Shown here: one piece after another, positions 13,794 to 31,645 of the stretch
Layout: each line of letters opens with the position of its first letter
Position numbering within the stretch: the first letter of the stretch is position 1
From: Ancylobacter polymorphus
GTDB lineage: Bacteria > Pseudomonadota > Alphaproteobacteria > Rhizobiales > Xanthobacteraceae
Assembly (NCBI RefSeq): GCF_022836935.1
Contig: NZ_CP083243.1
Span: forward strand, 1-64,000
Direction: 5' to 3'
DNA length: 64,000 nucleotides
Position numbers and translations under genes: made by a program
Notes under the pieces: model-generated
Databases searched by the model: none
What the model saw: only the letters and a program-made list of their open reading frames with translations
What the model was told of the DNA's origin: nothing

Positions 13794-14002
13794 AGCGCAA
13801 GGCGTCGCGGCCCTGCAACCATCGTCTCGTTGCTCATTGGGACGATGAGCGCGACATCGGCAACGGCATCATCGTCACGTTGCGCCCCGGCTATGTCTTC
13901 TACGACGATTGCGGGGTCATGGGCTTCGACACCGTGCGCGCGGCGCGTGAAGCCCTTCGGAGCGTTGCCGCGAGATCGGAACGGCAGGAGCGGCGCTCAT
14001 GA
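13790..14002 (+). CDS. hypothetical small protein (70 aa)
   Basis: A 70-residue protein (MKRKASRPCNHRLVAHWDDERDIGNGII...) with no recognised domain. The central part reads as two beta strands (GNGIIVTLRPGYVFYDD) followed by a helix (TVRAAREALRSVAAR). Support for its reality comes from the ATGA overlaps on both sides and codon use like its neighbours. Confidence 0.6.
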   Translation: MKRKASRPCNHRLVAHWDDERDIGNGIIVTLRPGYVFYDDCGVMGFDTVRAAREALRSVAARSERQERRS

Positions 14003-14295
14003 GGTTCCGCTGCCATCGCTGCGGCCAGGCATGGCCGGACCATCCCGTCACCCGGGTTCCCTGCCCGATATGTCGTGCCGCTGCGGGGGCGTGGTGTCGC
14101 CGGCCGTCGGGGCTCCGCGCCATGGAGCTCCACGTCAATCGCGAGCACAATGCGCTCGCCATGGGGTGCCTCCAGCGGTGCCCGGGCCCTGGCGGCGAGG
14201 CTCAGCTGAGCCTCCACCTGCAGTCGTCGCGTGCGCTGGAGATGCTGCCGAGCGTGTATCCGTCTTCCGGAAGTTCGACGTCGTCGGGCGCATGA
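13999..14295 (+). CDS. zinc-ribbon small protein
   Basis: A 98-residue protein opening MRFRCHRCGQAWPDHPVTRVPCPICRAAAGAWCRRPSG. Two CxxC pairs (CHRC, CPIC) form a zinc ribbon, followed by GAWCRRPSGLRAMELHVNREH, a second Cys/His group seen in phage and plasmid zinc-finger proteins that often bind nucleic acid. The last 30 residues are low-complexity Ser. It is the last gene of the overlap operon. A GGGCCGC/GCGGCCC hairpin at 14301-14322 lies just behind the stop, without a T-tract. Confidence 0.68.
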   Translation: MRFRCHRCGQAWPDHPVTRVPCPICRAAAGAWCRRPSGLRAMELHVNREHNALAMGCLQRCPGPGGEAQLSLHLQSSRALEMLPSVYPSSGSSTSSGA

Positions 14296-16012: not shown

Positions 16013-16942
16013 ATGAAAAGGAAGGAAAGCAGGCCGCGCACCGACATCTATGCGCAGATCACGGAAAAGCTCGTCGCCGCGCTCGAGAAGGGGGTGCGTC
16101 CCTGGGTGCAGCCCTGGAGCGCAGGCAATGTGAAGGGCCGCGTGACGCGGCCGCTGCGCCACAATGGCGAACCCTATACCGGCATGAATGTTCTGCTGCT
16201 CTGGTCGGAGAGCATGGCGCGCGGCTTCGCCTCGCCGGTGTGGATGACCTTCAGACAGGCGTCCGAGCTCGGCGCACATGTCCGCAAGGGCGAAAGCGGC
16301 GCGACCGTCGTCTATGCCAGCCGGTTCAAGCGCACTGAGACCGACGCGCGCGGCGACGAGGTCGAACGGGAGATTCCCTTCCTCAAAGCCTACACCGTGT
16401 TCAATTGCGACCAGATCGAGGGCTTGCCGCAGCACTACTATGCCCGGCCCATCGAACCGGTCCCCGACCCGGTCGAGCGGATCGGCCATGCCGACCGCTT
16501 CTTCGGCAATACCGGGGCAGTGATCCGCCATGGCGGGGCGAAGGCCTTCTTCGCCCCGTCCACCGACCATGTGCAGATGCCGCCGTTCGAGAGCTTCCGC
16601 GACGCGGCGAGTTACTATGCCGTTCTCGGACATGAATGCGTCCACTGGGCCGGCGCGTCACATCGGCTCAACCGGGACCTCAGCCGCTACCACCAGGATC
16701 GCAGCGAGCGGGCGCGCGAAGAGCTCATCGCCGATATCGGCGCGAGCTTCCTCTGCGCCGATCTCGGCCTGGTGCCGGAGCTCGAGCCGCGGGCGGACCA
16801 CGCGAGCTACGTCGCCTCCTGGCTCAAGGTGCTGCAGGACGACCGTCGGGCGATCTTCGCCGCGGCCGCCCATGCGCAGCGGGCGGTCGCCTATCTCCAC
16901 GGCCTTCAGCCAAGGGCCGAGAGCGAGCGGAAGGCGGCCTGA
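16013..16942 (+). CDS. ardC: ArdC-type antirestriction protein
   Basis: A 309-residue ArdC protein. ArdC has an N-terminal ssDNA-binding domain (DUF1738) and a C-terminal zincin-like metalloprotease domain, and protects incoming plasmid DNA from type I restriction. Visible are RPRTDIYAQITEKLVAALEKGVRPWVQPW (typical start), HNGEPYTGMNVLLLW, and the ssDNA-binding core WMTFRQASELGAHVRKGESGATVVY. The zinc motif is HECVHW near residue 205, with the downstream REELIADIGASFL supplying the third ligand. The gene has its own structured leader and shares one base (TGATG) with the next gene. Confidence 0.95.
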   Translation: MKRKESRPRTDIYAQITEKLVAALEKGVRPWVQPWSAGNVKGRVTRPLRHNGEPYTGMNVLLLWSESMARGFASPVWMTFRQASELGAHVRKGESGATVVYASRFKRTETDARGDEVEREIPFLKAYTVFNCDQIEGLPQHYYARPIEPVPDPVERIGHADRFFGNTGAVIRHGGAKAFFAPSTDHVQMPPFESFRDAASYYAVLGHECVHWAGASHRLNRDLSRYHQDRSERAREELIADIGASFLCADLGLVPELEPRADHASYVASWLKVLQDDRRAIFAAAAHAQRAVAYLHGLQPRAESERKAA

Positions 16943-17817
16943 TGCTTCACGCTCCGCCTTCGAGCGGGGAGGGCGCCGACGCCGAGCCCTCCCCGGCGAT
17001 CCGCCTGCGCGTGCTCAGCCTCGGCGCCGGCGTGCAGTCCACCACCCTCGCGCTGCTCGCCGCCCATGGCGAGATCGGCCCCATGCCCGACTGTGCGATC
17101 TTCGCTGATACGCGCTGGGAGCCCAAGCCGGTCTACGAGCACCTGGCCTGGCTCATGTCGCCCAACGTCCTGCCATTCCCGGTCCATATCGTGTGTGCCG
17201 GTGATATCCGGGCGAATCTCATCGCGGCGGCGGAAGGCCGCCGCTGGGCATCGATCCCCGCGTTCACGCGCCGTGTGGACCGGCAGGGGCGCGTCTCGGT
17301 CGGCATGATCCGGCGCCAATGCACCGGCGACTACAAGATCGATCCAATCCGTCGGAAGGTGCGCGCGCTCGCCGGCTTGACGCGCCGGCGGTCGCCGGCC
17401 GTCCCGGTCGTCGAGCAATGGATCGGCATCTCGACCGACGAGATAATCCGCATGAAGCCGAGCTTCGAGAGCTGGCGCCTCAATCGCTGGCCGCTCGTCG
17501 AACGGCGCATGTCGCGCCGCGACTGCCTGTCCTGGCTGGAGCGGCACGGCTATCCGCGACCCCCGAAAAGCGCGTGCATCGGTTGCCCGTACCATAGCGA
17601 TGCGGCGTGGCGGCGCCTGCGCGACGGCGATCCGGCCGGCTGGGCCGATGCGGTCGCGGTTGACCGGGCGATCCGCTCCGGCCTGCGCGGAATCCGTGGT
17701 CAGGTCTTTCTCCATCGTTCGGCGAGGCCGCTGGAAGACGCCGATCTCACCACGGCCGCCGATCACGGCCAGCTCGATCTCTGGCCCAACGAGTGCGAGG
17801 GCATGTGCGGCCTGTAA
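16942..17817 (+). CDS. PP-loop (PAPS reductase-like) ATP pyrophosphatase family protein
   Basis: A 291-residue protein related to phosphoadenosine phosphosulfate reductase. The PP-loop is SLGAGVQSTTLALLAAHGE (residues about 27-45). A cysteine cluster SACIGCPYHSDAAWRRLRD lies in the C-terminal third, with a further Cys in RRQCTGDYKID. Such proteins in phages and mobile elements are not sulfate reducers; they may activate a substrate by adenylation, as DndC and tRNA-thiolation enzymes do. The stop-start overlap TGATG with ardC makes co-translation likely and suggests a role in modifying or protecting incoming DNA. That last point is inference. Confidence 0.8.
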   Translation: MLHAPPSSGEGADAEPSPAIRLRVLSLGAGVQSTTLALLAAHGEIGPMPDCAIFADTRWEPKPVYEHLAWLMSPNVLPFPVHIVCAGDIRANLIAAAEGRRWASIPAFTRRVDRQGRVSVGMIRRQCTGDYKIDPIRRKVRALAGLTRRRSPAVPVVEQWIGISTDEIIRMKPSFESWRLNRWPLVERRMSRRDCLSWLERHGYPRPPKSACIGCPYHSDAAWRRLRDGDPAGWADAVAVDRAIRSGLRGIRGQVFLHRSARPLEDADLTTAADHGQLDLWPNECEGMCGL

Positions 17818-17955
17818 CTGTGGGCTGGCACCGCGACTCTGCCCCCGGTTCGGATACGATCGAGGGTCGGCACCGGTGCAAGGGAGCCCGGCCGCAGCGT
17901 TGTGCCAAGCCGTCTTCCTCTCAATGACGACCCATCATACCGGCAGTCGGGCCGC

Positions 17956-18054
17956 GTCAAGGACGCGCGGTGCCCCCAATTTTGCCGCCGCTGCGCGACA
18001 ACAAAATCGGCACCCCCGCGCGCCGGCGCTGCCGGTCGCTGCGCGATCCTTGAC
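17956..18054 (+). repeat. structured leader element, copy A
   Basis: A 99-nt element folding into a three-stem junction. The outer stem GTCAAGGA...TCCTTGAC closes the element. Inner stem 1 is AATTTTG/CAAAATC. Inner stem 2 is CCGGC-GCT-GCCGG at about 18023-18035. Copies B and C share this fold with compensating base changes. A second hairpin, CCTCC (18081-18085) / GGAGG (18101-18105), sequesters the SD of the gene at 18111. The sequence from 17818 to 17955 holds no gene. Confidence 0.7.
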
Positions 18055-18110
18055 CCGGCCCTCCAACGCCCGGTGCGCCGCCTCCCGTCATCGAGACGAA
18101 GGAGGTTCAC

Positions 18111-18269
18111 ATGACGAAGGTTCTCGACATCTACGCCGAAATCGCCGAGCTGCGCGCCGAGCTCGCGCACTGCATCCTCACCCGCCAGGAGCGCAGGGAG
18201 TCGCAGCAGCGCCTCGAAGAGCTGCTCGCGGAGGCCGAGCGCCGCAGCCGCGAGGCGGAGGGGGCGTGA
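18111..18269 (+). CDS. 52-aa coiled-coil protein
   Basis: A short gene of 52 codons (MTKVLDIYAEIAELRAELAH...) with a GGAGG SD 5 nt before the ATG. The product is almost entirely one amphipathic helix with heptad-like leucines and a Gln/Arg/Glu-rich surface (QERRESQQRLEELLAEAERRSREAE), so it probably dimerises as a coiled coil. It is not a recognised family. It follows leader element copy A at the same spacing as the genes at 21373 and 22109, and the right end of an IS110-type element begins a few bases after its stop. Confidence 0.7.
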   Translation: MTKVLDIYAEIAELRAELAHCILTRQERRESQQRLEELLAEAERRSREAEGA

Positions 18270-18274
18270 GCCCC

Positions 18275-19505
18275 CTCACATGGGGTGGCCTTGGTCAAGT
18301 GTTCTTCATGCGGTCATGATGGCACTCCTCATCGTGATCAGGGCCGAGCCGTTTTCTGCATGCAGCCGGACAGCCGCATCACCTCACATCCGGTCGGCGC
18401 GCAGGCGCCTGTACCATGATCCCTCATGCTTGAGGGCGTCGGCTCGGAAGAGTGGGACCATCCTTTTTGGCGGCATGTTCCAGCCAGGGGGCTTAACAGC
18501 GGTCACCACTCACCCGGATCCAGCTCGCCAGTTGTCGATCCGGCGCGCAGGATGAGAAAGGCTAAAGAGGCTATGCCTTGAGTACGGCGCCCTCGGGCAT
18601 GGTGCCTTGGGTCACGTAGCGCCAAAGCGCCACGAGGAGCTTGCGGGCCAGCGCCACGATGGCAATGCGTCGAACCCGGCCGCGCCCTGGGCCTACCCGC
18701 TGGACGAACCAGCGGCTGAGCGCCGACCCGGGCTGATGGCGGACCCAGAACCAAGCCAGCTCGACCATGGTATGACGCAGGCGAGGGTTGCCCGCCTTGG
18801 TAATACCCTGCTCTCGGTCGATGCCGCCGCTCTGCCACGGGCTTGGGGCCAATCCTGCATAAGCCGCGATCTGACGGCGGTTGTCGAAGCGCCGGAACAG
18901 AGCTTCCAGCCACAACAGCGAGGCGAACTCAGGTCCGATTCCCCGTAGGCGGACGAGCAGGGCCGGCGCCATCTCTCCGGCTTGTGCGAGAAGCGTATCG
19001 CGCTCGCGTTCGACCGCGGCCAGTTGAGACAGTACGAGCTCCAAACGGTCGATCTCGCGGCTGATCTCTCTGCCGAGATGGTCCGGCAAGGGGCGGCCAT
19101 CTCCAGTCTGGAGGGCGGCAAGGCGCGTGCGCCGGTCCGCGCGGAGCGGGTCGTAATCGCCCACTCCCTGGCCGAACAGGAGACCTTTGATGCGGTTCGT
19201 ATGTGCGATGCGCTCCTTGATCAGCCGACCGCGCTCGCGCGACAGCCGTCGCCGGTCCTCCGCGTCCGGGCTGGGCGCTTCGACCATCGAGCAGACCTGG
19301 TGCTCGCCTCGTGACCAGGCCATGAGCGTGCGCACGAGAAGGTCGCCGTCGACCGCGTCGGTCTTCGCCCGTCGGTGACGACGATTCACCGCAATCGAGG
19401 CCGGGTCCACGACGTAGCTGGCGATCCCCTCGCGCAGCAGCAGACGGTGGAGCCAAAAGCCATCCAGCCCCGCTTCCTGAACAACAGCGACCGACACCGG
19501 CGCAC
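18275..19505 (-). mobile_element. IS110-family element, 5' truncated
   Basis: The transposase gene (18571-19500, minus) and about 295 nt of non-coding DNA behind it (18275-18570) make up the remaining element. The left end, the transposase start and any upstream bridge-RNA region are missing. The element passes directly into the middle of a DUF736 gene at about 19505. IS110 elements lack classical terminal inverted repeats, so exact ends cannot be set from the sequence alone. Confidence 0.75.
18571..19500 (-). pseudogene. IS110-family transposase lacking its N-terminus
   Basis: About 310 residues remain. The first is within ...[30 protein letters not shown], which carries the Glu of the DEDD RuvC-like site; then [17 protein letters not shown] supplies Asp residues. 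The Tnp_20 domain follows (LLVRLRGIGPEFASLLWLEALF, AAYAGLAPSPWQSGGIDREQGITKAGNPRLRHTMVELAWFW) with its serine. Roughly the first 70-80 residues, including the first catalytic Asp, are absent. The frame upstream of 19500 stays open only by reading antisense through DUF736 sequence. It should be inactive. Confidence 0.85.
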
Positions 19506-19674
19506 CAAGCCGGCGCTCGGCGCGGCCTGGCAACGGGCCACCGACGAGGGTCGCGACTACCTCTCGGTCAAGCTGGACGATCCGTCCTTCCGGGAGCCCC
19601 TCTACGCCACCCTGGTCGAGGTGGAGGGCGAGGAAGGCCTGCAGCTGATCTGGTCCCGGCCGCGGCGGGATTGA
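19506..19674 (+). pseudogene. DUF736 family gene, 5' part lost
   Basis: Plus-strand codons before the stop at 19674 read [26 protein letters not shown], then a strand, then LIWSRPRRD. This is the C-terminal half of DUF736, a roughly 100-residue family found on nearly all rhizobial conjugative plasmids. The N-terminal half is replaced by IS110 sequence, and no start or SD remains. No intact DUF736 gene is present elsewhere in the window. Confidence 0.85.
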
Positions 19675-19742
19675 TCGCAGCGACGCGAGGGCTCCGCCGC
19701 AAGGCGGGGCCTTCGCCCTTTCCGGCACGCGAGGAGACCCTG

Positions 19743-19937
19743 ATGACGCGATCCCGTTCATCACAGCGCCGACAGCCGCATCCCGACGACATCGTTCTCT
19801 GGCCCGACGGCACCTGGGCCACGCTCGAGGAGGTGCGCAACGGCGACTACGACTGGATGTCGGACGACTTTGAGATCATCGACCACATGGACGGCGCCCG
19901 GCTGAAGGCGGCCGGTGTCATTGACGAGACCATGTGA
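19743..19937 (+). CDS. hypothetical protein (64 aa), conserved-plasmid type
   Basis: A small protein MTRSRSSQRRQPHPDDIVLWPDGTWATLEEVRNGDYDWMSDDFEIIDH... with a basic N-terminus and an acidic, aromatic C-terminal part. The WPDGTW...GDYxWMSDDF pattern resembles small proteins that accompany DUF736 genes on rhizobial plasmids; I have no name for it. It is preceded by a GGCTCCGCC-GCAA-GGCGGGGCC hairpin at about 19687-19710 and a GAGGAG SD, and may once have been co-transcribed with DUF736. Confidence 0.68.
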   Translation: MTRSRSSQRRQPHPDDIVLWPDGTWATLEEVRNGDYDWMSDDFEIIDHMDGARLKAAGVIDETM

Positions 19938-19988
19938 CGCCACTTGGCCGGCAGCGCTTCGCTTGCCGGCCATTCCTATGGGGCCGGT

Positions 19989-20237
19989 TCAATCCGCGTC
20001 ACGATAACCCCGCCGCCGCTTGCTGCGCTCGAGGCGGCTCAGGGCGTCGCCGGCCTCGTCGGGCCCGTCGAAAGTCTGCATCATGGCCTGGCCGTTCGAC
20101 CCGATCCGGCCCCAGTTGCGGACGACCGAGGCGCCGCCGAACAGCGTCGGCTGGATCGCCAGCATGTAGAAGCGCCGCATGTTCTGCGTCGGGTCGATGC
20201 GGCGAAGATGGACGGGTCGGCTGCCCTTCTGGGTCAT
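19989..20237 (-). CDS. WGR domain protein
   Basis: An 82-residue protein consisting of a WGR domain: HLRRIDPTQNMRRFYMLAIQPTLFGGASVVRNWGRIGSNGQAMMQTFDGPDEAGDALSRLERSKRRRGY. The signature reads NWGRIGSNGQ. WGR domains bind nucleic acid and are best known from PARPs, but short stand-alone forms are frequent on alphaproteobacterial plasmids. I place the start at MTQKGSRPVHL rather than at an upstream in-frame Met. It lies on the minus strand with the SNase gene 85 nt upstream. Confidence 0.85.
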   Translation of the reverse strand: MTQKGSRPVHLRRIDPTQNMRRFYMLAIQPTLFGGASVVRNWGRIGSNGQAMMQTFDGPDEAGDALSRLERSKRRRGYRDAD

Positions 20238-20321
20238 GCCGGGAGTCTCGCCGGCGCCGCAGGCGGCGTCCAACGCGTTTTTCGAATCGGTCCGGCGCGA
20301 CCGATTCATTGTGCTGATGCC

Positions 20322-20795
20322 TCAGTCGCACCAGCTGCGCCGGTTGCCGTCCCATCGCCGGACAAGCCGTTCGGCGACCATGCGCTCGCCGATCGAGCGT
20401 CCCGCGCGCATGACCATGCGCAGCTTGCGGCCGAACGGGTCTTCGTCCCGCACGCCCGCGCGCAGCGCAAACGGCCCGGCATTGAGCAGCGCCCGCAGCC
20501 TGTGCTTCGCAGCCTCGCCGACCTCCCTCTCATATTCGCAGCGCGGCGGCGTGAGTTCCGGAGCGTCGATGTCGGCGATCCGGATCTTCTGCCGCCCGAG
20601 CCAGAACGTGTCGCCGTCGACCACGCAGTTGAATCGGCGAGCACTTCCACAGAACGTAAATGAAGCCGTCACGGTGTCGCCGACAGGCCCGGAAACCGGA
20701 CGCGGCCTTGGCTCGGCATCGCCCCGGGATGCCCAATGGAGCACGGCGAGGACCAGCGTGGCGACGACGGCGCCTTTCGCGACGAGGCCCGTCAT
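20322..20795 (-). CDS. thermonuclease (SNase) family protein with signal anchor
   Basis: A 157-residue protein with an N-terminal hydrophobic segment (LVAKGAVVATLVLAVLHWAS), so it is exported or membrane-anchored. A staphylococcal nuclease-like domain follows: CVVDGDTFWLGRQKIRIADIDAPELTPPRC, VGEAAKHRLRALL, and DPFGRKLRMVMRAGRSIGERMVAERLVRRWDG. The catalytic Arg and Asp residues of the SNase fold (IRIADIDAPE, the GRxL element) are present. It presumably degrades nucleic acid in the periplasm. The WGR gene lies downstream on the same strand. Confidence 0.88.
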   Translation of the reverse strand: MTGLVAKGAVVATLVLAVLHWASRGDAEPRPRPVSGPVGDTVTASFTFCGSARRFNCVVDGDTFWLGRQKIRIADIDAPELTPPRCEYEREVGEAAKHRLRALLNAGPFALRAGVRDEDPFGRKLRMVMRAGRSIGERMVAERLVRRWDGNRRSWCD

Positions 20796-21059
20796 TGTCC
20801 AGGATCGCTGCTCGAGCCGGCCGGTCGGTTCCCTCGCCGGCGCTGTCCGTCCGACCCGAACTCTATGTCCAAGGTGGCGGGTCTTTCCTCGATCGAATGC
20901 GGAGCGGGTCGAAGGGCCCGGGTGGCGTCAAGCGCCATGATCCGCACAGGGTGGGAGATCTGGGCGAGCCGCCTGCGGCGGTCTGGCTCTACTCGCGCCG
21001 CTACGCGCCGCTCCCGGAGCCCGCTGCGCGGTCTCCGCCATGCGGTGACGATCCATCTC
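20796..21059. other. intergenic, no gene seen
   Basis: Between the SNase start and leader copy B there is no ORF with a start, SD and protein-like composition on either strand. It should contain the SNase promoter (minus); I cannot point to convincing -35/-10 boxes. Confidence 0.4.
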
Positions 21060-21372
21060 GCGCGACGGGACGCCCGGATCGACCGGGCGTCCCGTCGCGA
21101 GGGCGACCCTCGCGCACCCTGCCGGCTGGTCGCCGGATACGGACGCGGCCCCTGGTCGGGGCCGAGGGCTCTTCTTCTCTCTGACGGCCCATTGTGCACC
21201 CGCTGCTCCGGCGTCAAGGACATCGCGGTTCCCCCAATTTTCCGCCGCCGCCCGCCGGGCGCCGCCGGAAAATCGGCACCTCCGCTCGCCGCCGCAGGCG
21301 GTCGCTTCGCGATCCCTGACCCCTCGCGGCTACGGTGCGGCCTCCTTTCGTCAGACCGAAAGGAGAAATCTC
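21060..21372 (+). repeat. structured leader, copy B (long form)
   Basis: This roughly 310-nt leader is repeated at 21795-22108. From 5' to 3' it holds: GGGACGCCCGG/CCGGGCGTCCC (11-bp stem, loop ATCGA), GCGAGGG/CCCTCGC, GGCCCC/GGGGCC, a conserved TCTCTGACGGCCCATTGTGC stretch, and the three-stem junction at 21213-21320 (outer GTCA...TGAC with ATCGCG/CGCGAT, inner ATTTTCCG/CGGAAAAT, inner CCGCC-GCA-GGCGG). The last hairpin is CCTTTCG (21344-21350) / CGAAAGG (21357-21363), which covers the SD of the next gene. Confidence 0.75.
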
Positions 21373-21750
21373 ATGACACATCAAACCGTGACGTCCATCG
21401 ATGGCGGCAGCGCCGAATATTGGAAGCAGCGGACCGAGGCCTTCCGCCTGATCCGTGACGCGGAGGATTGCGCGAAGCGCCTCGAGACAGCGCCGCTCTA
21501 TCTCCACGGCGGATACGATGAAGACGGCGACGTCATCCCGGTCGAGAATCTCGAGCCGCACGACGATATGGAGGACGCCGTTCGGGCGATCGAGGCCAAC
21601 GAGACGGCCGTCAGCATTCTGGTGGCGCAGCGCCGGACCCGCATCGGTGGCCGCCCGATCCCGGAGGTGATCCTCGCGGTGGCGCGATTGGAGGAGGATC
21701 CAATCGAAGATCCGGTGAACAATCCGCTCTGGGGCTCGGACACGGATTGA
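21373..21750 (+). CDS. hypothetical protein (125 aa), single-gene cassette
   Basis: An acidic 125-residue protein, MTHQTVTSIDGGSAEYWKQRTEAFRL..., not recognised. The first half is helical (EAFRLIRDAEDCAKRLETA), then an acidic stretch (GGYDEDGDVIPVENLEPHDDMEDAV) and a second helix (RAIEANETAVSILVAQRR). The acidic, small character resembles DNA-mimic or inhibitor proteins, but nothing specific supports that. It lies 53 nt after leader element copy B, has a hidden SD (AAAGGAG), and ends at a strong terminator. Confidence 0.65.
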   Translation: MTHQTVTSIDGGSAEYWKQRTEAFRLIRDAEDCAKRLETAPLYLHGGYDEDGDVIPVENLEPHDDMEDAVRAIEANETAVSILVAQRRTRIGGRPIPEVILAVARLEEDPIEDPVNNPLWGSDTD

Positions 21751-21756
21751 TATCCA

Positions 21757-21789
21757 GAGCAGAGGCGGCTCACGCCGCCTCTGCTCTTT
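21757..21789 (+). terminator. terminator after the 125-aa gene
   Basis: A perfect 13-bp stem GAGCAGAGGCGGC (21757-21769) / GCCGCCTCTGCTC (21774-21786), loop TCAC, then TTT. It starts 7 nt after the stop codon. Confidence 0.85.
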
Positions 21790-21794
21790 GCCGT

Positions 21795-22108
21795 GTCCGA
21801 AGCGCCGCCGCCCGGATCGACCGGGCGCCCCGTCGCGAGGCCAACCCTCGCGCACCCGGCGGGCTCTGCGGGCTGCGGACACGGCGCCTGGCCGGCGCCG
21901 TGGCTTTCCTCTCTCTCTGACGGCCCATTGTGCACCCGCCGCTCCGGCGTCAAGGACATCGCGGTTCCCCCAATTTTCCGCCGCCGCCCGGGAGGCGCCG
22001 CCGCAAAATCGGCTCCCCCGCTCGCCGCCGCAGGCGGTCGCTTCGCGATCCCTGACGCCTCGCGGCTACGGTGCGGCCGCCTTTCGTCAGAACGAAAGGA
22101 GACCTCTC
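21795..22108 (+). repeat. structured leader, copy C (long form)
   Basis: Homologous along its whole length to 21060-21372. The stem GGCGCC/GGCGCC replaces GGCCCC/GGGGCC of copy B, a compensated change. The three-stem junction spans 21949-22056. The SD-covering hairpin is CCTTTCG (22080-22086) / CGAAAGG (22093-22099). The element ends 53 nt before the ATG, exactly as in copy B, although the downstream genes are unrelated. Confidence 0.75.
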
Positions 22109-22612
22109 ATGTCCGACATCGACTATCTCTCGCTGTTCACGCGCCTGAACGGCTTTAGGCTCATCGCAAGAATCAATCGTGTCGCCTGCGACAACGATCT
22201 CGCGCGTTGCGCACACGACCGGCTCGTCGCCAAGCTCGGCGAGCTGATCGAGCTGATGACGCGCGCAGTAGGAGCGAAGCGGTGCCTGCAAGAGGGCGCT
22301 GATCCCGCGCGCGTCGAGCAGGCCTCGGAAGACCTCTACTGGATCGAGGCGGAGTTCGAGCACCGCTGGATCTCGCAGTCGCAGCCGCTTCTCGATCATC
22401 TCGACATCGATCTGGCGACGCAGGAGATTTTCGATCCCCGCACGAAGCGCTGGTACGCGCTCGAATGCGGCCCGTCGCTGCGCGAGGTGAGCGACCAGAA
22501 CCTCTGCGGCCTGCGCGAGATCATCGACCGGATCGCGTGCCAGACCGGCGTGAGCTTCCACGCCCACCGCATCGTCTACGGGTCCACCGAGCTGGTGCCG
22601 AGCGGCCGCTGA
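22109..22612 (+). CDS. hypothetical protein (167 aa), single-gene cassette
   Basis: A 167-residue, mostly helical cytosolic protein, MSDIDYLSLFTRLNGFRLIARINRVACDND..., with no recognised domain. A helical first part (residues 1-85) is followed by EFEHRWISQSQPLLDHLDIDLATQEIFDPRTKRWYALECGPSL and a last helix containing CGLREIIDRIACQTGVSFHAHRI. It has no sequence similarity to the 125-aa protein despite sharing its leader. It closes with a perfect terminator-like stem. Confidence 0.65.
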   Translation: MSDIDYLSLFTRLNGFRLIARINRVACDNDLARCAHDRLVAKLGELIELMTRAVGAKRCLQEGADPARVEQASEDLYWIEAEFEHRWISQSQPLLDHLDIDLATQEIFDPRTKRWYALECGPSLREVSDQNLCGLREIIDRIACQTGVSFHAHRIVYGSTELVPSGR

Positions 22613-22621
22613 GCCGCAGAG

Positions 22622-22644
22622 GAGAGGCGGCCCGGCCGCCTCTC
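22622..22644 (+). terminator. terminator-like hairpin after the 167-aa gene
   Basis: GAGAGGCGGC (22622-22631) pairs perfectly with GCCGCCTCTC (22635-22644), loop CCG. No T-tract follows, so termination strength is uncertain. Confidence 0.6.
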
Positions 22645-22719
22645 GCCCTCGCCTCGGCCGAGGGCATGGCGCGCCGGAGCAAGCGTCGCGCGCTCGCCTG
22701 GAAACCGCGACTGCTCCCG

Positions 22720-23916
22720 TCATGCCGGAAGCTCCGGCATGGCGCCGTCGCCGATATTCCAGGTCCAGGCCGCGATGCCGCTCTCGGCGATCAGCTCGTC
22801 CAGCTTCTCCCGATAGTCGCCCTCGGCGCCGTCGGGCACGATATACATGCCGAGCGGTGCGGCGCCGTCCTGCCGCAGAACAACGCAGGCCATCGGCTGC
22901 GCCGCCGGCATGTTGTAGCGCAGGCTTTTCACGAAGCTGGCGCCGCGCTTCGCCAACGCGTCGATCAGCGCCGCCTCGTAGCGATTCTCGCATGGCAGCC
23001 AGCGGTCGGTCGCGACCATGAGCGCGATCGACTCGATCGAGGCGATGCCGGCGGCATCGACGCCGAAGGTGGCGATCGCGATAAGATGCGACTCCGCGGT
23101 CGCGTTCCAGAGCGCCAGCTCGGGGGCGAACACCGCGTTCATCCGCCGGTGAACGTCGTCGTTCAGCATGAAGGGGAAGCGGGGGAGGTGCTTGATCACG
23201 ACGCGGTGGCCGAAGCGCGCCGGCGCGATCTCCTTGACCTCGCCGATCAGCATGGCAAGCGAGCGGCGCTTGCCTTCCGCCTTCATCGCGCGGCTGAGGA
23301 ATGTCTCGCGCCGCTGCGCGATCGCGGCGTCGCGCTCGGCATCGAACATCTCGGGGATGAACAGGACGTCCGCGAGCGCCTTGCCTTTCGCGGTCTTGCC
23401 CTCGGCCGCCTCGAGCAGGAACTTGCGCAGCACCGCCCAGTTGCGTCGGCCGGTCATGGCCGGCCGCCAGCGATTGAACTCGGCCTGCTCCCACAGAAAG
23501 TGCAGCAGCGCGCGCAGCGAGAGCCGCGAACCGTCCGTCTTCACCGCGCCGGCATCGGTCGTCTCACGCGCCGCCGGCGCCGTCCGACCGGCCTGCTTCG
23601 ACAGGCTGAAATCGAGCTTGAGCAGGGTGACGCCGTCCTCGGCGTTCTCGACGATCGCCTCGCCGGCGACGGCCCCAAGACCGGAAAGCGCATGCGGCGG
23701 CTCATAAGAATCGCAGTCGGGATCGTGCCGCGGTCCGCTGCCCGGCATCCGCTTCAGCACATGGCGGCCGCCCGCGCGCGCCACATACATCGGAACGCCA
23801 TCCTGCTGGCACAGGCACAGCGGATGTTCGCGCCGGGCGAACGCCTCCGACAGCCGCTCGCTGATGTCGCCGGCACTGTCCTCGACCTCCATGTCGCCGA
23901 TGCGCAGCCGTCTCAA
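22720..23916 (-). CDS. DUF1173 domain protein of the tra region
   Basis: A 398-residue protein matching DUF1173, which accompanies Ti-type traG genes. The N-terminal part holds a cysteine/histidine group (HPLCLCQQDG, RHDPDCDSY) that could bind zinc. The middle has RALLHFLWEQAEFNRW and GRRNWAVLRKFLLEAA; the C-terminus has FPFMLNDDVHRRMNAVFAPELALW. I choose the TTG at 23916 because AGGGAGGAG lies 5-7 nt before it; the first downstream ATG (MEVEDSAG) is the alternative. It begins 64 nt after the traG stop, on the same strand. Function unknown. Confidence 0.85.
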   Translation of the reverse strand: MRRLRIGDMEVEDSAGDISERLSEAFARREHPLCLCQQDGVPMYVARAGGRHVLKRMPGSGPRHDPDCDSYEPPHALSGLGAVAGEAIVENAEDGVTLLKLDFSLSKQAGRTAPAARETTDAGAVKTDGSRLSLRALLHFLWEQAEFNRWRPAMTGRRNWAVLRKFLLEAAEGKTAKGKALADVLFIPEMFDAERDAAIAQRRETFLSRAMKAEGKRRSLAMLIGEVKEIAPARFGHRVVIKHLPRFPFMLNDDVHRRMNAVFAPELALWNATAESHLIAIATFGVDAAGIASIESIALMVATDRWLPCENRYEAALIDALAKRGASFVKSLRYNMPAAQPMACVVLRQDGAAPLGMYIVPDGAEGDYREKLDELIAESGIAAWTWNIGDGAMPELPA

Positions 23917-23980
23917 CGCGCTCCTCCCTGCAGCAGGTCGATCGATCGCACCGAGGCTGCAATCCCACGATCGCCGTCTA

Positions 23981-25900
23981 TCATCGCACCGCTTCTTTCC
24001 GGTGGAATCTGTTCTCGCCGACACAGCTCCTCATGTCCTCGCGGCGGAACCAGATGGCCCGCCCGCATCGAAGCGGTGCATTGCCGGCTGTGAACACGAT
24101 CTGCTCGTCGGCGCGCATGCGCAGCACCTCGTGCGGCAGGATCAGGGGGCGGCGCGCCAGCTGCTTCGAGCGCGTCCGCGACGCGCCCGACATCTGCGAC
24201 GAGCGGCTGAGCTGGTCGACCTCCACGGTGGTGTCGCCGCAGCGCCGTGAGATGTAGTCGGCGGTCTCAGGATCGTTGATCGCGGCGAAGCTTATCCACG
24301 AGGCGGACTCGAACCATTTCGAGGTGGCGTCTCGGCCGCCATAGGCTTCGCGCATCTGCCCGATGGACTGGAAGAGCAGGGTCATGGTGATCCCGTATTT
24401 TCGGCCGGCATCACGCGCGGTCTCCAGGATGCGCAGGAAGCCGAGCCGTGCCACTTCGTCGAGCAGGAACAGGGTCCGATCCTTCACCTCGCCATTGCGA
24501 TTGTAGATCGCGTTCATCAGCGCGCCGATGATGACGCGGGCCAGTCCCGGATGCGCCTCCAGCACTTTCAGGTCGAGCGCGATGAAGATGTCGGTGCCGC
24601 CGTCGGCGAGCTCGTCGGTCGTGAAGCTGTGGCCGGAGATCAGGGCCGCATAGTTCGGATAGGACAGCCAGTGTGTCTCCTTCACCGCATTGGCGTAGAC
24701 GCCGGAAAAGGTCTCCGGCGTCATGTTGACGAACACCGCGACATTCTCCTTCACGAAGTCCGATCCCGACTGCTCGTAGATCCGGGTCAGCCGCTCCCGC
24801 AGCTTCGGCTCCGGCTCGGAGAGATTGGCGCGCACCTGCCGGAGCGTCTGGTCCTTCTTTTCCGTATGACCCGACAGACAGACGTCCGCGATCAGCGCGG
24901 TCAGAAGCTGCATCGCCGACGCCCGAAAGAAGTCGTCGCGGGCGGAGGCCTGGCGCGCCGTGTCGGTCATCACCCAGGTCGCGACGGCGACGATGTCTTC
25001 CTCCTTCGTCCCACCGAAACGCCCGATCCAGTCGAGCGCATTGAAGCCGGTGGCGGCATCGGCCGGGTCGAGCACCACCACCTTGCGGCCCGCCTTGCGC
25101 CGATGGCCGATCACCATCGGCGCAACCTCGGATGAGGGGTCGAGCACCACGAGGCCGCCGCCCCATTTCAACGCCGAGGGAATCGTTACCGACGTGGTCT
25201 TGAAACCGCCCGAGCCGGCGAAGACGATGCCGTGCGACGAGCCGAACGAGCCGTCGAAGCAGAGCAGCGGCGAGCGGCCGCCGCTGCCCCAGCTGTCGCG
25301 GCTGTCGGCGCGGAACGCGATGCCGGCGACGGAATCGCGATCGACCCGGTAGCGCTCGCCGATGACGATGCCGCCGGCGTCCCCGAACAGCTTGCCAGCC
25401 GTCTCCATTCGCATCCAGTCGGTCTCGCCATGGATCGCGCGCCGGCCCTTGATCCGGCGCGGAGACGCCGCGGCGAAGGCGGCATTGCCCCTGATGGCGA
25501 CGCGCAGCGCGAACATCGCGCAAACGAGCGCGATCGCCGCGCCGATCATCGTTCCCGGATCGGCATAGGCCAGCACATATTGCCCCGCCGGCACGCGGTC
25601 CGCCAGAGCAGCCAGCCGCGCGCCTTCGCGGATAGTGGCGATGCCGATGACGGCCGCGCTCCCGGTCACGACGCCCCATCCGACCGCCCGGATGGCGATC
25701 GCGCCGGCCGCCGCGAAGAGCAGGATCACGCCAACTCCGGCCGACAGCACGTAGGGGAGCGCAAGCCCGGCACGGCCGAGCATCAGGCGTGCGGCTTCGG
25801 TCTTGCCGAAGCCCGCCAGCCAGTGCTCGGCGCCCGCGGTGAAGATCGCGACGGCGACCATCACCACCACCTGGATCATCGCGATCAGCAGCCTATTCAT
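23981..25900 (-). CDS. traG: TraG, type IV coupling protein
   Basis: A 639-residue VirD4/TraG ATPase that links the relaxosome to the mating channel and pumps DNA. Two or three N-terminal transmembrane segments are present ([43 protein letters not shown], and one near [22 protein letters not shown]). The Walker A motif is the Ti-type [11 protein letters not shown] (about residue 228) and Walker B is [11 protein letters not shown]. The C-terminal part has [14 protein letters not shown] and [22 protein letters not shown]. The start [10 protein letters not shown] overlaps the end of traD by 8 nt. The order traC-traD-traG is that of Agrobacterium Ti plasmids. Confidence 0.96.
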
Positions 25901-26550: not shown

Positions 26551-26594
26551 ATCCAAGGGCGCAGTAATACGTCGCTGCCGCGACGTCCTGCGCC
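26551..26594 (-). other. oriT: oriT, Ti/RSF1010-type nick region
   Basis: ATCCAAGGGCGCAGTAATAC at 26551-26570 matches the pTi nick region (CCAAGGGCGCAATTATACGT) at nearly every position. It is followed by a perfect ACGTCGC-TGCC-GCGACGT inverted repeat (26569-26586) and outer arms GGCGCA (26558-26563) / TGCGCC (26589-26594). By analogy with RSF1010 and pTi the nick falls on the minus strand within GCGCCCTTGG. The transferred strand is then the minus strand and enters with 26559 and lower coordinates first. Confidence 0.88.
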
Positions 26595-26662: not shown

Positions 26663-29600
26663 GTGGCGATCACGCATTTCACGCCCCAGCTCATCGGCCG
26701 CGGCAATGGCCGCAGCGCCGTGCTGTCGGCCGCGTACCGCCATTGCGCCCGGATGGAATACGAGGCCGAGGCCCGCACGGTCGACTATTCCAACAAGCGC
26801 AATCTCGCCCATGAGGAATTCCTGCTGCCGGCCGACGCGCCGGAATGGGCGAGGGCGCTGATCGCCGACCGCTCGGTCGCCGGCGCCGTGGAGGCGTTCT
26901 GGAACAGGGTCGAGGCGTTCGAGAAGCGCGAGGACGCGCAGTTCGGCCGCGAGTTCATCATCGCGCTGCCCGTGGAGCTGTCCAAGGAGCAAAACATCGC
27001 GCTGATGCGGCAGTTCGTGCTCGAACAGGTGCTGGCGCGCGGGCAGGTCGCCGACTGGGTCTATCACGACGAGCCGGGCAATCCGCATGTCCACCTGATG
27101 ACGACGCTGCGGCCACTGACGGAGGACGGCTTCGGCCCGAAGCGAATCCCCGTCATCGGCGAGGACGGCGAGGTGCTGCGCAACAAGGCCGGCAAGATCG
27201 TCTATCGGCTCTGGTCGGGCGAGAAGACCGAGTTTCTCGAGCAGCGCAACGGTTGGCTCGACCTGCAGAACCAGCATTTGGCGCTCGCCGGTCTGGAGAT
27301 CCGCGTCGATGGGCGCTCCTATGCCGAGCGCGGCATCGACCTGGTGCCGACCACGCATATCGGCGTCGGCGCGAAAGCGATCCAGCGCAAGTCGACGCGC
27401 GAGGGCGAGGCGGTCGATCTCGAACGGCTGAAGCTGTTCGAGGCGCAACGCACCGAAAACCGTCGGCGCATTCTGCTTCGGCCGGAGATAGTGCTCGATC
27501 TTCTCTCCTCGGAGAAGAGTGTCTTCGACCAGCGCGATATCGTCAAGGTGCTGCATCGCTATGTCGACGATGCAGGCACCTTCCAGCAGCTGATGGCGCG
27601 CATTCTCCAGAGCCCGGAGCTCCTGCGCATCGAGCGCGAGAGCGTCGACTTCGCGACCGGGGAGAGACTGCCGGCGCGCTATACGACGCGCGAGCTCATC
27701 CGTGTCGAGGCCGGCATGGCGCGGCAGGCGATCTGGCTTTCCGGGCGAAGCTCACATGGCGTGCGCGAGCGCGTGCTGGAGCAGGTGTTTGCCCGACATG
27801 AAAGGCTGTCCGAAGAGCAGCGCACGGCAATCGAGCATGTGACCAAACCGGGCGGGATCGCCGCCGTCGTCGGGCGGGCCGGCGCCGGCAAGACCACCAT
27901 GATGAAGGCAGCGCGCGAGGCCTGGGAAGTCGGCGGCTATCGCGTGGTCGGCGCGGCGCTCGCCGGCAAGGCGGCCGAGGGTCTCGAGAAGGAAGCGGGC
28001 ATCCAGAGCCGCACGTTGGCGTCCTGGGAGCTGCGCTGGAAGGAGGGCAGGGACACGCTCGATTCCAGCACTGTCCTCGTGCTCGACGAAGCCGGCATGA
28101 TTGCCTCCAAGCAGATGGCCCGCTTCGTTGAGGCTGCGGTGAAGGCCGGCGCGAAGCTAGTGCTGATCGGCGATCCCGACCAGCTGCAGCCGATCGAGGC
28201 GGGCGCGGCGTTCCGCGCCGTCGTCGAGCGCATCGGCTACGCCGAGCTGGAGACGATCTATCGCCAACGCGAGGACTGGAAGCGAGCCGCATCGATGGAT
28301 CTGGCGCGCGGCCGGATCGCCGAGGCGCTCTCGGCCTATCAGCAGCAGGGCAGGGTGCTCGGTTCGGTCCTGAAGGCCGAAGCGGTCGCCAGCCTGATCG
28401 CGGATTGGAACCGCGACTACGATCCCGCCAGGAGCTCATTGATCCTCGCGCATCTGCGCCGCGACGTGCGCATGCTGAACACGATGGCGCGCGAGAAGCT
28501 GGTCGAGCGCGGGCTCCTCAGTGAGGGGCACGCGTTCCGCACCGAGGACGGCGTGCGCAGGTTCGATGTCGGCGACCAGATCGTCTTCCTGAAGAACGAC
28601 AGCGCCCTCGGCGTGAAGAACGGCATGATCGGCAAGGTCGTCGAGGCCGCGCCGAACCGCATCGTCGCGGCGATCGGGGAGGGCGACCAGCGCCGGCAGG
28701 TGACGGTGGATCAGCACGTCTATCGCAATCTCGACCACGGCTATGCGACGACGATCCACAAGGCTCAAGGCGCTACCGTCGACCGCGTGAAGGTCCTCGC
28801 CTCGCTCTCGCTCGACCGCCACCTGACCTATGTCGCGCTGACCCGACACCGTGAGGACATGGCGCTCTATTACGGGCGTCGCTCCTTCGCCTTCAATGGC
28901 GGCCTCGCCAAGGTCCTCTCCCGGCGCAATGCCAAGGAGACCACGCTCGATTACGAGCGCGGCACGCTCTACCGGCAGGCGCTTCGCTTCGCCGAGAACC
29001 GCGGCCTGCACATCGTCAATGTCGCCCGCACGCTGCTGCGCGATCGTGTCGACTGGACGGTCCGGCAGAAACGGAAGTTCGCCGATCTCGCCCAGCGCCT
29101 GCGCGGTATCGGCGCGCGTCTCGGCCTGTTCGATCCCCGTCAGACACATAGCCCGAAGGAGGCCGCAGCGATGGTCGCTGGCGTCACCCTGTTCACCAAA
29201 TCGATCAAGGACACGGTCGAGGAGAAGCTGCGCGCCAATCCTGCCGTCACCAAGCAGTGGGACGAGGTCTCGACCCGCTTCCGCTATGTCTTCGCCGATC
29301 CGGAGACCGCGTTCCGCGCCATGAATTTCGACGCGGTCCTGTCCGATCCGACCGCGGCCAAGACGGCACTCGACCGGCTGGTGTCGGAGCCGCAGGCGCT
29401 CGGCCCTCTGAAGGGCAAGACCGGGCTGCTCGCCGGTAAGGCCGATCGCGAGGACCGCCGCGTCGCCGAGCTCAATGTCACGGCGCTGAAGCGGGACATC
29501 GAACGCTATCTCAACCTGCGCGAGGCGGCCGTGCAGAAGCTCCAGGCCGACGAGCAGGCGCTGCGCCATCGCGTCTCGATCGACATCCCGGCCTTGTCGC

Positions 29601-29965
29601 CGGCGGCGCATCGGGTCCTCGAGCGGGTGCGTGACGCGATCGACCGCAACGACCTGCCGGCCGCGCTCGGCTACGCGATTTCCAACCGCGAAGTGAAGGG
29701 CGAGATCGATGGATTCAACAAGGCGATCGCGGAGCGGTTCGGCGAGCGCACGCTGCTCACCAACGCCGCCCGCGAACCCGCCGGCAAGATCTTCGACAAG
29801 GCGGCCGACGGGCTCGCTCCGGGCGAGCGGCAGAAGCTCGCCGAGGCCTGGCCGACCATGCGGACGGCGCAGCAGCTCGCCGCCCAAGAGCGCACCGCCG
29901 CGACGCTGAAGCAGGCCGAAACCCTGCGCCAGAGCCAGCGGCAGACGCCGGTGATGAAGCAGTGA
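26663..29965 (+). CDS. traA: TraA, relaxase-helicase
   Basis: A 1100-residue Ti-type TraA. The N-terminal MobA/MobL relaxase domain (residues 1-220) starts with AITHFTPQLIGRGNGRSAVLSAAYRH (active-site Tyr region) and carries the HUH-type metal site as YHDEPGNPHVHLMTTL. A helicase domain follows: VVGRAGAGKTTMM (about residue 415), VLVLDEAGMI (about 475), QLQPIEAGAAFRAV, and HGYATTIHKAQGATVDRV with YVALTRHREDM. The remaining C-terminus is helical. It nicks oriT, stays covalently bound to the 5' end and unwinds the strand. The start is GTG, with GGGAG upstream. It ends in a GTGA overlap with traF. Confidence 0.96.
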   Translation: MAITHFTPQLIGRGNGRSAVLSAAYRHCARMEYEAEARTVDYSNKRNLAHEEFLLPADAPEWARALIADRSVAGAVEAFWNRVEAFEKREDAQFGREFIIALPVELSKEQNIALMRQFVLEQVLARGQVADWVYHDEPGNPHVHLMTTLRPLTEDGFGPKRIPVIGEDGEVLRNKAGKIVYRLWSGEKTEFLEQRNGWLDLQNQHLALAGLEIRVDGRSYAERGIDLVPTTHIGVGAKAIQRKSTREGEAVDLERLKLFEAQRTENRRRILLRPEIVLDLLSSEKSVFDQRDIVKVLHRYVDDAGTFQQLMARILQSPELLRIERESVDFATGERLPARYTTRELIRVEAGMARQAIWLSGRSSHGVRERVLEQVFARHERLSEEQRTAIEHVTKPGGIAAVVGRAGAGKTTMMKAAREAWEVGGYRVVGAALAGKAAEGLEKEAGIQSRTLASWELRWKEGRDTLDSSTVLVLDEAGMIASKQMARFVEAAVKAGAKLVLIGDPDQLQPIEAGAAFRAVVERIGYAELETIYRQREDWKRAASMDLARGRIAEALSAYQQQGRVLGSVLKAEAVASLIADWNRDYDPARSSLILAHLRRDVRMLNTMAREKLVERGLLSEGHAFRTEDGVRRFDVGDQIVFLKNDSALGVKNGMIGKVVEAAPNRIVAAIGEGDQRRQVTVDQHVYRNLDHGYATTIHKAQGATVDRVKVLASLSLDRHLTYVALTRHREDMALYYGRRSFAFNGGLAKVLSRRNAKETTLDYERGTLYRQALRFAENRGLHIVNVARTLLRDRVDWTVRQKRKFADLAQRLRGIGARLGLFDPRQTHSPKEAAAMVAGVTLFTKSIKDTVEEKLRANPAVTKQWDEVSTRFRYVFADPETAFRAMNFDAVLSDPTAAKTALDRLVSEPQALGPLKGKTGLLAGKADREDRRVAELNVTALKRDIERYLNLREAAVQKLQADEQALRHRVSIDIPALSPAAHRVLERVRDAIDRNDLPAALGYAISNREVKGEIDGFNKAIAERFGERTLLTNAAREPAGKIFDKAADGLAPGERQKLAEAWPTMRTAQQLAAQERTAATLKQAETLRQSQRQTPVMKQ

Positions 29966-30490: not shown

Positions 30491-31645
30491 ATGGCGCGGG
30501 TTCTGGCGCTGGTCCTGATCGCCGCGCTGGTCGGCGTCATCGGCTGGAGCGGCGAGCCGCTGGCGCTGCCGCTCGCGACACTCTTCCCGACGCTATGGGC
30601 GCTGGCGAGCAGCCACTTGGTCGCGGCGCTGGTCGCGGCGGCCTACTTTCTTGCGGCGTCGCGCGGCCTGCCGCAGGGCGTCGCGAACTTCTACGGCTCC
30701 GACATCTGGCCAGGCCTGTTCCTCTGGCTCGTCGCGTCCCTGTCCTTCGTCGCCGTCAATACCCTGCTCTGGACGAGTCGACCGGGAGGAGGGAGGGCGG
30801 CGCGCTTTCTGCTGGCGTCCGCGCTGATGGCGGTGCCGCCCTTCGGGATCGTGGGTTGGGCGCATCCGCTGACAGCCGCCGGCGTGTTGTTTCCCGGATG
30901 GGGCTGGTGGGGACTTGCGGCCGCCGCGGTCGTCCTCATCGCGATGACGACGCGAGCCTGGCCGATCGCCGCGATCGCTCTCGGCGGAATCTGGCTCTGG
31001 TCGGCCGTGACATGGACGGCGCCGCCGCTCCCGGACGGCGTTCGCGGAGTCGACCTCGATATGGGCCAGAGCCTCGGACGCGACGGCACGCTCGAGCGGC
31101 AGCGCGACCTGATCGCCTCGGTCACGCGGGCTGGAGAGCGGGGCGCCAGGATCGTGGTGCTCCCGGAAAGCGCGCTCGGGTTCTGGACGCCGAGCGTCGA
31201 GCAGCTCTGGCGCGAAGCGCTCGCAACCAACGACACCGCGGTGATCGCCGGTGCCGCCGTCATCGACCCGCAGGGTTATGACAACGTCCTCGTCGCGATC
31301 TCGGCGGACGAGGCGGGAATCCTTTATCGCGAGCGCATGCCGGTTCCGGTCTCGATGTGGCAGCCCTGGCGTCGCCTGGTCGGGCAGGCCGGAGGCGCGC
31401 GGGCGCATCTCTTCGCCAACCCGACCGTCGAGCTCGGCGGCCGGCGGATCGCGCCGCTGATCTGCTATGAGCAGCTCGTCGTTTGGCCGGTCCTGCAGTC
31501 GATGCTGCACAAGCCCGATGCGATCGTCGCCGCCGGGAATGGCTGGTGGACCGCCGGCACCTCGATCATGGCCATCCAGAATGCCAGCACGATCGCCTGG
31601 GCGCGTCTTTTCGACCTGCCGCTCGTCACCGCCTTCAACCGATGA
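30491..31645 (+). CDS. traB: TraB, membrane-bound nitrilase-like transfer protein
   Basis: A 384-residue protein with six to seven hydrophobic segments in the first half (for example LVAALVAAAYFLAASRG, LFLWLVASLSFVAVNTLLW, LAAAAVVLIAMTTRAW) and a C-terminal carbon-nitrogen hydrolase domain. The Glu is in VVLPESALGFW and the Cys in LICYEQLVVWPV, with a Lys in between. The architecture is like apolipoprotein N-acyltransferase. In Ti plasmids traB increases conjugation efficiency and its biochemical role is unclear. It starts 1 nt after the traF stop. Confidence 0.93.
   Translation: MARVLALVLIAALVGVIGWSGEPLALPLATLFPTLWALASSHLVAALVAAAYFLAASRGLPQGVANFYGSDIWPGLFLWLVASLSFVAVNTLLWTSRPGGGRAARFLLASALMAVPPFGIVGWAHPLTAAGVLFPGWGWWGLAAAAVVLIAMTTRAWPIAAIALGGIWLWSAVTWTAPPLPDGVRGVDLDMGQSLGRDGTLERQRDLIASVTRAGERGARIVVLPESALGFWTPSVEQLWREALATNDTAVIAGAAVIDPQGYDNVLVAISADEAGILYRERMPVPVSMWQPWRRLVGQAGGARAHLFANPTVELGGRRIAPLICYEQLVVWPVLQSMLHKPDAIVAAGNGWWTAGTSIMAIQNASTIAWARLFDLPLVTAFNR

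Follow-up and report, generated by a model that had tools for sequence, protein, structure and literature searches.

Candidate single-stranded DNA promoters in the leading region of an Ancylobacter polymorphus plasmid and of related alphaproteobacterial plasmids

RNA polymerase initiates on single-stranded DNA hairpins at the complementary-strand origin of M13 and at the hairpin promoters of phage N4. Both are phage systems, the former devoted to primer synthesis and the latter served by a phage polymerase, and in this they differ from the elements considered here, which are three related structures, each ahead of a small gene, in the first 64 kb (the window) of the 83,314-base contig NZ_CP083243.1 of Ancylobacter polymorphus (RefSeq assembly GCF_022836935.1). 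The single-stranded promoters that have been shown experimentally belong, in the papers considered, to enterobacterial plasmids. Among these, Frpo1 and Frpo2 of the F plasmid are reported to fold as single-stranded DNA, to rebuild a -10 and a -35 box and to drive leading genes early in the recipient (PMC9849209, PMC11541004). Together with the related single-strand initiation (ssi) promoters of ColIb-P9 they resemble the Ancylobacter elements in their place in the leading region, in a stem-loop on the transferred strand (T-strand) that carries a -10 and a -35, and in the logic of early gene expression. Leading-region surveys of Frpo-like candidates, which started BLAST from five known sequences and some derived from islands (PMC11541004; reused in PMC12826799), describe computed -35/-10 hairpins upstream of leading-region genes, a further likeness; Agrobacterium is not mentioned in the examined text of either paper. 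The open-access literature, with preprints and most subscription papers outside its scope, gave no report of such promoters in alphaproteobacteria. We consider it probable that each of the three Ancylobacter elements is a promoter for single-stranded DNA, active during entry into a recipient cell, with its use by RNA polymerase being a prediction. The family to which they belong, its covariation, the promoter boxes, the unpaired -10, the strand bias, and the position and orientation relative to the relaxase gene and nick motif were all computed.

The three elements, delimited by alignment, covariance model and DNA fold, lie at 17914..18110 (element 1), 21171..21372 (element 2) and 21907..22108 (element 3) on the minus strand, the predicted T-strand, while the genes that they would serve are on the plus strand. 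As minus-strand DNA they fold with z = -5.88, -3.42 and -4.57, respectively, and in each case none of 200 shuffles is as stable; the minimum-energy fold of element 2 differs from those of elements 1 and 3 in the pairing of stem P1. Elements 2 and 3 form a tandem duplication (244 nucleotides (nt) at 89% identity, 736 nt apart), and element 1 shares 76% identity with element 2 across the aligned part. A 57-nt direct repeat (91%) at 21071-21127 and 21809-21865, upstream of elements 2 and 3, indicates that the duplicated unit exceeds the promoter. A first-pass annotation of the window had described three copies of a structured leader of about 100 nt, and its positions, its outer and inner stems and the distances of the copy ends from the start codons at 18111, 21373 and 22109 (57, 53 and 53 nt upstream) are confirmed, as is a genuine double change in the third stem (CCGGC/GCCGG versus CCGCC/GGCGG). 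The conserved unit is larger, about 190 nt, and two of the compensatory changes proposed do not hold: the outer stem changes on one side only (AAGG/CCTT versus AAGG/CCCT), the sense A.C being a G.T wobble on the other strand, and in the inner stem a C.C mismatch stands beside TTTT/AAAA in copy 3. The covariation claimed within one plasmid is in fact weak, because the duplication leaves the window alone with only two independent sequences.

Covariation becomes apparent in the wider family. Searches with blastn matched 513 plasmid records with element 2 and 512 with element 1, mostly from Rhizobium, Agrobacterium and Sinorhizobium but also from Sphingobium, Sphingomonas, Paracoccus and Roseibium, while no phage record matched element 2. 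A covariance model (R1) built on 28 copies finds five copies over three contigs in the window's own genome, with none on its 4.39-Mb contig, where blastn gives two marginal matches. Over 81 loci the model gave 122 matches, reduced to 118 distinct ones by omitting two in locus L081 (the plasmid of L017 again), a 44-nt self-match in L010 and an identical core in L124, and then to 113 analysable elements by removing five without a clear P1 arm pair; a subset of 42 dissimilar elements is defined by <70% identity over the final 15 bases of the spacer. Eleven whole plasmid records hold 24 full-length copies, all on a single strand in each record, the four remaining matches being partial, on the opposite strand and inside full-length copies; a Shinella sumterensis plasmid carries seven full-length copies in 9.4 kb (L010, 19199-28617), all on one strand. 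Matches occur in at least 12 of 297 genomes sampled from the order, at least 41 of 151 from one family, at least 10 of 289 from the class and at least 11 of 299 from the phylum, these being lower bounds because few candidates were scored per genome; all 11 positives of the phylum sample are in the window's class, in a sample for which the share of genomes from outside that class is unstated. In an alignment of 119 distinct members, pairing holds in 95.9% of cells (86.4% on average in shuffles) and changes on both sides occur in 14 of the 23 pairs, a level reached in none of 500 shuffles, with the qualification that the alignment was fitted to the model and is hence biased toward its structure. 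The inner-stem covariation is strong whichever strand is read. The fold proposed in the first-pass annotation is thereby borne out well beyond near-identical copies, with strong covariation and no Rfam family or sign of a transposon end. A transposon or insertion sequence end was rejected as an explanation, since one orientation prevails in 60 of 61 elements and in 26 of 27 multi-copy loci and the 108 downstream open reading frames (ORFs) form groups of small proteins.

In the 113 aligned elements the predicted fold of the T-strand is a long hairpin with a -35 and a -10 on its 3' arm. Stem P1 (TCAAGGA with TCCTTGA), read on the T-strand, contains CTTGAC, which is the alphaproteobacterial -35, and a -10 follows 15-19 nt beyond it. 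The two positions with defined roles in the -10, A at -11 and T at -7, are both present in 109 of the 113 (shuffles: mean 32, maximum 45) and in 39 of the 42 dissimilar elements (mean 12.4, maximum 20), and these columns were already invariant amid a variable stretch in the initial 28-sequence alignment. The identical scan of the duplex in the gene-ward direction scores 5 of 42, which is less than the shuffled mean of 11.7, and yields nothing above chance. The boxes face the gene only if the other arm of the hairpin is the template. In element 1 the -35 (TTGACG, 17955..17960, minus strand) lies within P1, which pairs 17957-17963 with 18047-18053, spans 17957..18053 on the minus strand and encloses stems P2, P3 and P4; the spacer (17940..17954, minus) is the 3' arm of stem P0, with its partner at about 18055-18074, and the -10 (TATGAT, 17934..17939, minus) is mostly unpaired in the folded T-strand. 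Elements 2 and 3 carry TTGACG at 21212..21217 and 21948..21953, and CACAAT at 21191..21196 and 21927..21932, likewise on the minus strand. A strict sigma-70 scan of 17000-23000, which demands spacers of 16-18 nt and 9 of 12 matches where the elements here have 15 nt, returned no sites.

The spacer, whose sequence is highly variable, pairs with the stretch that follows P1. In the 42 dissimilar elements it binds its own partner arm at -13.7 kcal/mol compared with -9.2 kcal/mol for swapped arms, none of 10,000 permutations being as good, while the -10 shows no such pairing (-3.13 kcal/mol with both own and swapped arms). Partition-function folding of the T-strand gives mean unpaired probabilities of 0.09 for the -35, 0.25 for the spacer and 0.61 for the -10, and in 108 of 113 elements the spacer is less open than the -10. 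A paired -35 and spacer together with an open -10 suggest that the hairpin would restore a promoter whose -10 is melted, its second arm acting as the template into the gene. We infer use by RNA polymerase, the start site, the timing and a translational lock. In the proposed sequence of events the long hairpin would form on arrival of the T-strand in the recipient, and the gene would be transcribed by RNA polymerase off the T-strand itself, ahead of second-strand synthesis. The 3' arm would be the non-template strand, offering a paired CTTGAC, a paired spacer of 15-19 nt and an unpaired -10 like that of a pre-melted promoter, and the 5' arm would be the template running into the gene. As the boxes face away from the gene in the duplex, the gene-ward promoter would vanish in the double-stranded plasmid.

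This model fits the placement of the elements relative to the transfer genes. The window shows a Ti-type arrangement, with a traA-type relaxase gene (MOBQ, 26663..29965, plus strand, the strand shared with the three element-served genes), opposite-strand genes preceding it and a nick motif resembling those of Ti and RSF1010 (TGCG^CCCTTGG on the minus strand, 26553..26563, a motif match). The nick position and direction of transfer are taken to be as in RSF1010, Ti and RK2 plasmids. With that direction the T-strand is the minus strand, transferred leftward, so that elements 1-3, at 4.5 to 8.5 kb from the nick motif, are in the leading region. A relaxase gene is found in loci containing 61 of the 113 elements, and 60 of these share its strand and have it downstream at 1.4 to 22.7 kb; as the genome-derived loci extend further downstream than upstream, 'downstream' is partly built in while 'same strand' is unaffected, and the annotated plasmid stretches with a relaxase have equal flanks. 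Of the 42 relaxase loci, 29 contain a recognised nick motif, identified by a strict 11-mer 104-115 nt ahead of the relaxase match for MOBQ (15 of 25) and a 7-8-mer for MOBP (14 of 16), with none in the single MOBF locus. With the nick direction so taken, the T-strand is the template in all 29, which implies that the elements enter the recipient early. The same motifs in the reverse direction are absent from the relaxase loci, a looser reversed 8-mer occurring further off in three MOBQ loci.

The genes following elements 1, 2 and 3 (18111..18269, 21373..21750 and 22109..22612, all plus strand) encode proteins of 52, 125 and 167 amino acids (aa) of unknown function, none of which has a match in Pfam, NCBIfam or PADLOC. 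Across the family a Shine-Dalgarno site and an ORF follow 108 of the 113 elements. The downstream proteins fall into 17 linked groups, those of the three window genes having 47 (45-77 aa), 8 (87-125 aa) and 26 (60-186 aa) members, with some of the automatic ORF calls being probably out of frame. Annotated neighbours on other plasmids include DUF736, DUF2493, zincin-like and SSB genes. Past the stop codon of the gene after element 2 lies a near-perfect 32-nt hairpin (AGAGCAGAGGCGG...CCGCCTCTGCTCT, 21756-21787), terminator-like but without a T run.

The predicted RNA start coincides, in most of the well-paired elements, with a conserved CGTCA block directly past a pyrimidine arm complementary to the Shine-Dalgarno site. 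For element 1 it would lie at 18085..18086 on the plus strand, judged from the distance to the -10 and placing CCTCC (18081-18085) outside the RNA; for elements 2 and 3 the same pairing puts it at about 21349-21350 and 22085-22086, the automatic estimates being 21355 and 22094. RNA beginning at the predicted start has a mean Shine-Dalgarno unpaired probability of 0.60, compared with 0.31 when 40 upstream bases are added, and the site is more open in 89 of 102 cases (six of the 108 were left out as the predicted start is too near the site), a comparison limited by the fact that a shorter RNA is more open regardless. With the start held fixed, the unpaired probability is 0.32 for native and 0.45 for shuffled upstream sequence, the native being more closed in 27 of 39 (Wilcoxon P = 0.0002). 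A transcript begun at the predicted start would lack the anti-Shine-Dalgarno arm, so that early RNA would be translated and read-through RNA poorly so. This may indicate, less firmly than for the promoter itself, a second lock that keeps the gene quiet when it is read through from afar. It seems an even question whether the whole amounts to an independent, Frpo-dissimilar class of single-stranded DNA promoters that runs a multi-gene entry programme on alphaproteobacterial MOBQ (including Ti), MOBP and MOBF plasmids under a double lock, the gene-ward promoter existing only in single-stranded DNA and a free ribosome-binding site only on RNA started there.

Other functions for the same hairpins were weighed. 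The elements may be single-strand initiation sites (of the ssi or sso type), in which the hairpin primes the second strand and gene expression is secondary. The fold and the leading-region position would fit a primer site equally well, and the title of the original Frpo paper names both transcription and primer synthesis. A Shine-Dalgarno site and an ORF regularly come after the elements, however, and up to seven copies in 9.4 kb of one plasmid, each ahead of a different gene, are more than priming requires; as the principal function it appears unlikely, although such a role may coexist with that of a promoter.

Another possibility is a cis-acting leader in messenger RNA, in which folded sense RNA controls downstream translation via the Shine-Dalgarno hairpin. 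The sense RNAs of elements 1 and 2 do fold better than shuffles (z -3.11 and -2.01), the Shine-Dalgarno site is closed by native upstream sequence, and at one helix-end column sense G.U is favoured (54 versus 3 A.C). At two internal stem positions the reverse is seen, with sense A.C, which is G.T on the T-strand, in 44 and 95 members and sense G.T in 0 and 1; at the second of these, where the alternatives are G-C and A-T, the T-strand pairs in 111 of 116. The other columns hold 28 A.C and 17 G.U, and stem P0 alone in the 42 dissimilar elements has 18 sense A.C and 5 G.T (10.2 and 5.9 with swapped arms), which goes in the same direction without being decisive. Relative to shuffles the T-strand has z -4.84 and the sense strand -2.95, the T-strand being lower in 38 of 42, and T-strand DNA lies below sense RNA in 40 of 42. 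The sense strand folds too, but less well than the T-strand, which most of the wobbles also favour. The orientation of the elements also follows the nick site, and no Rfam model matches elements 1-3. The first-pass annotation had left open whether the selected fold is one of RNA or of single-stranded DNA; selection of the fold is upheld and the single-stranded DNA half is the better supported. The leader role is not favoured: it is the strand opposite to the leader that carries the -35 and -10, the co-varying stem with the greatest sequence variation is the spacer of the predicted promoter, and both folding energy and wobble pairs speak for the T-strand. We regard the leader as quite improbable. 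A conventional promoter of duplex DNA might instead fire in the opposite direction, into the upstream gene or toward it, and the minus-strand -35 and -10 are in promoter order in the duplex too. This is very improbable: in 11 annotated plasmid stretches 14 of 23 upstream neighbours share the strand of the element's gene, leaving no constant divergent target, and such a promoter does not require a spacer that co-varies with a distant arm.

Several observations weigh against the single-stranded promoter nevertheless. The spacer is 15 nt in 45 of 113 elements, which is short for sigma-70, and the elements were anchored on a TCAAGGA-like stem, which in part selects for the -35 beforehand. The outermost block pairs weakly, 419 of 10,000 permutations of the whole arm being as good, with a clearer result for the far part (13 of 10,000). 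Composition accounts for 5.4 of the 11.4 kcal/mol by which the T-strand is the more stable, or about half, and the helix-end column noted above is reversed. One of the 61 elements with a relaxase (L108_13964) is opposite to it, and 13 of the 42 relaxase loci are without a strict nick motif. The same kind of scan applied to the Frpo regions of F gave no convincing boxes, with nothing on the T-strand in the first scan. As a relaxed scan returned only weak pairs, unlike the published boxes, F Frpo was dropped as a geometric yardstick. The deviating L108 copy (13964-14116, plus strand) has a normally placed copy 1.2 kb away on the opposite strand and perhaps reflects a local inversion.

The surroundings of the elements hold further genes. 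Upstream of element 1, the leading region holds an ArdC-like gene (16013-16942, plus strand, as is the gene of element 1) with ArdcN and zincin-like metallopeptidase domains; ArdC is named for an anti-restriction factor. An IS110-family transposase gene (18571-19764, minus strand, 203 bits) lies between the gene of element 1 and a frame on the plus strand (19375-19674) that resembles the tail of a DUF736 protein. A gene for a DUF1173 protein (22720-24024, minus strand, 491 bits) sits between element 3 and the transfer genes, and DUF1173 genes are annotated close to elements in loci L008 and L012 as well. The sole gathering-level Rfam match in the window is the Rhizobiales small RNA Atu_Ti1 (30926-31017, minus strand; 55.7 bits versus a gathering score of 55).

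The family appears to share the logic of Frpo without a sequence match to the F stretch searched, model R1 giving no matches at E up to 10 in 20 kb containing Frpo1 and Frpo2. It differs from Frpo in being a compact junction of about 190 nt, alphaproteobacterial and possibly furnished with a Shine-Dalgarno lock, and in that a plasmid stretch may hold as many as seven copies, each followed by a single small gene. The architecture, a paired -35 and spacer with an open -10, is sharp and testable, and has the covariation of 42 dissimilar sequences behind it. If the single-stranded promoter is real, the covariance model picks out each copy of such promoters on plasmids of rhizobia, agrobacteria, sphingomonads and others, and would thereby name the genes that these plasmids would express first in a new host. 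These would be mostly genes for small uncharacterised proteins, in regions that also hold ArdC, DUF736, DUF2493 or SSB genes.

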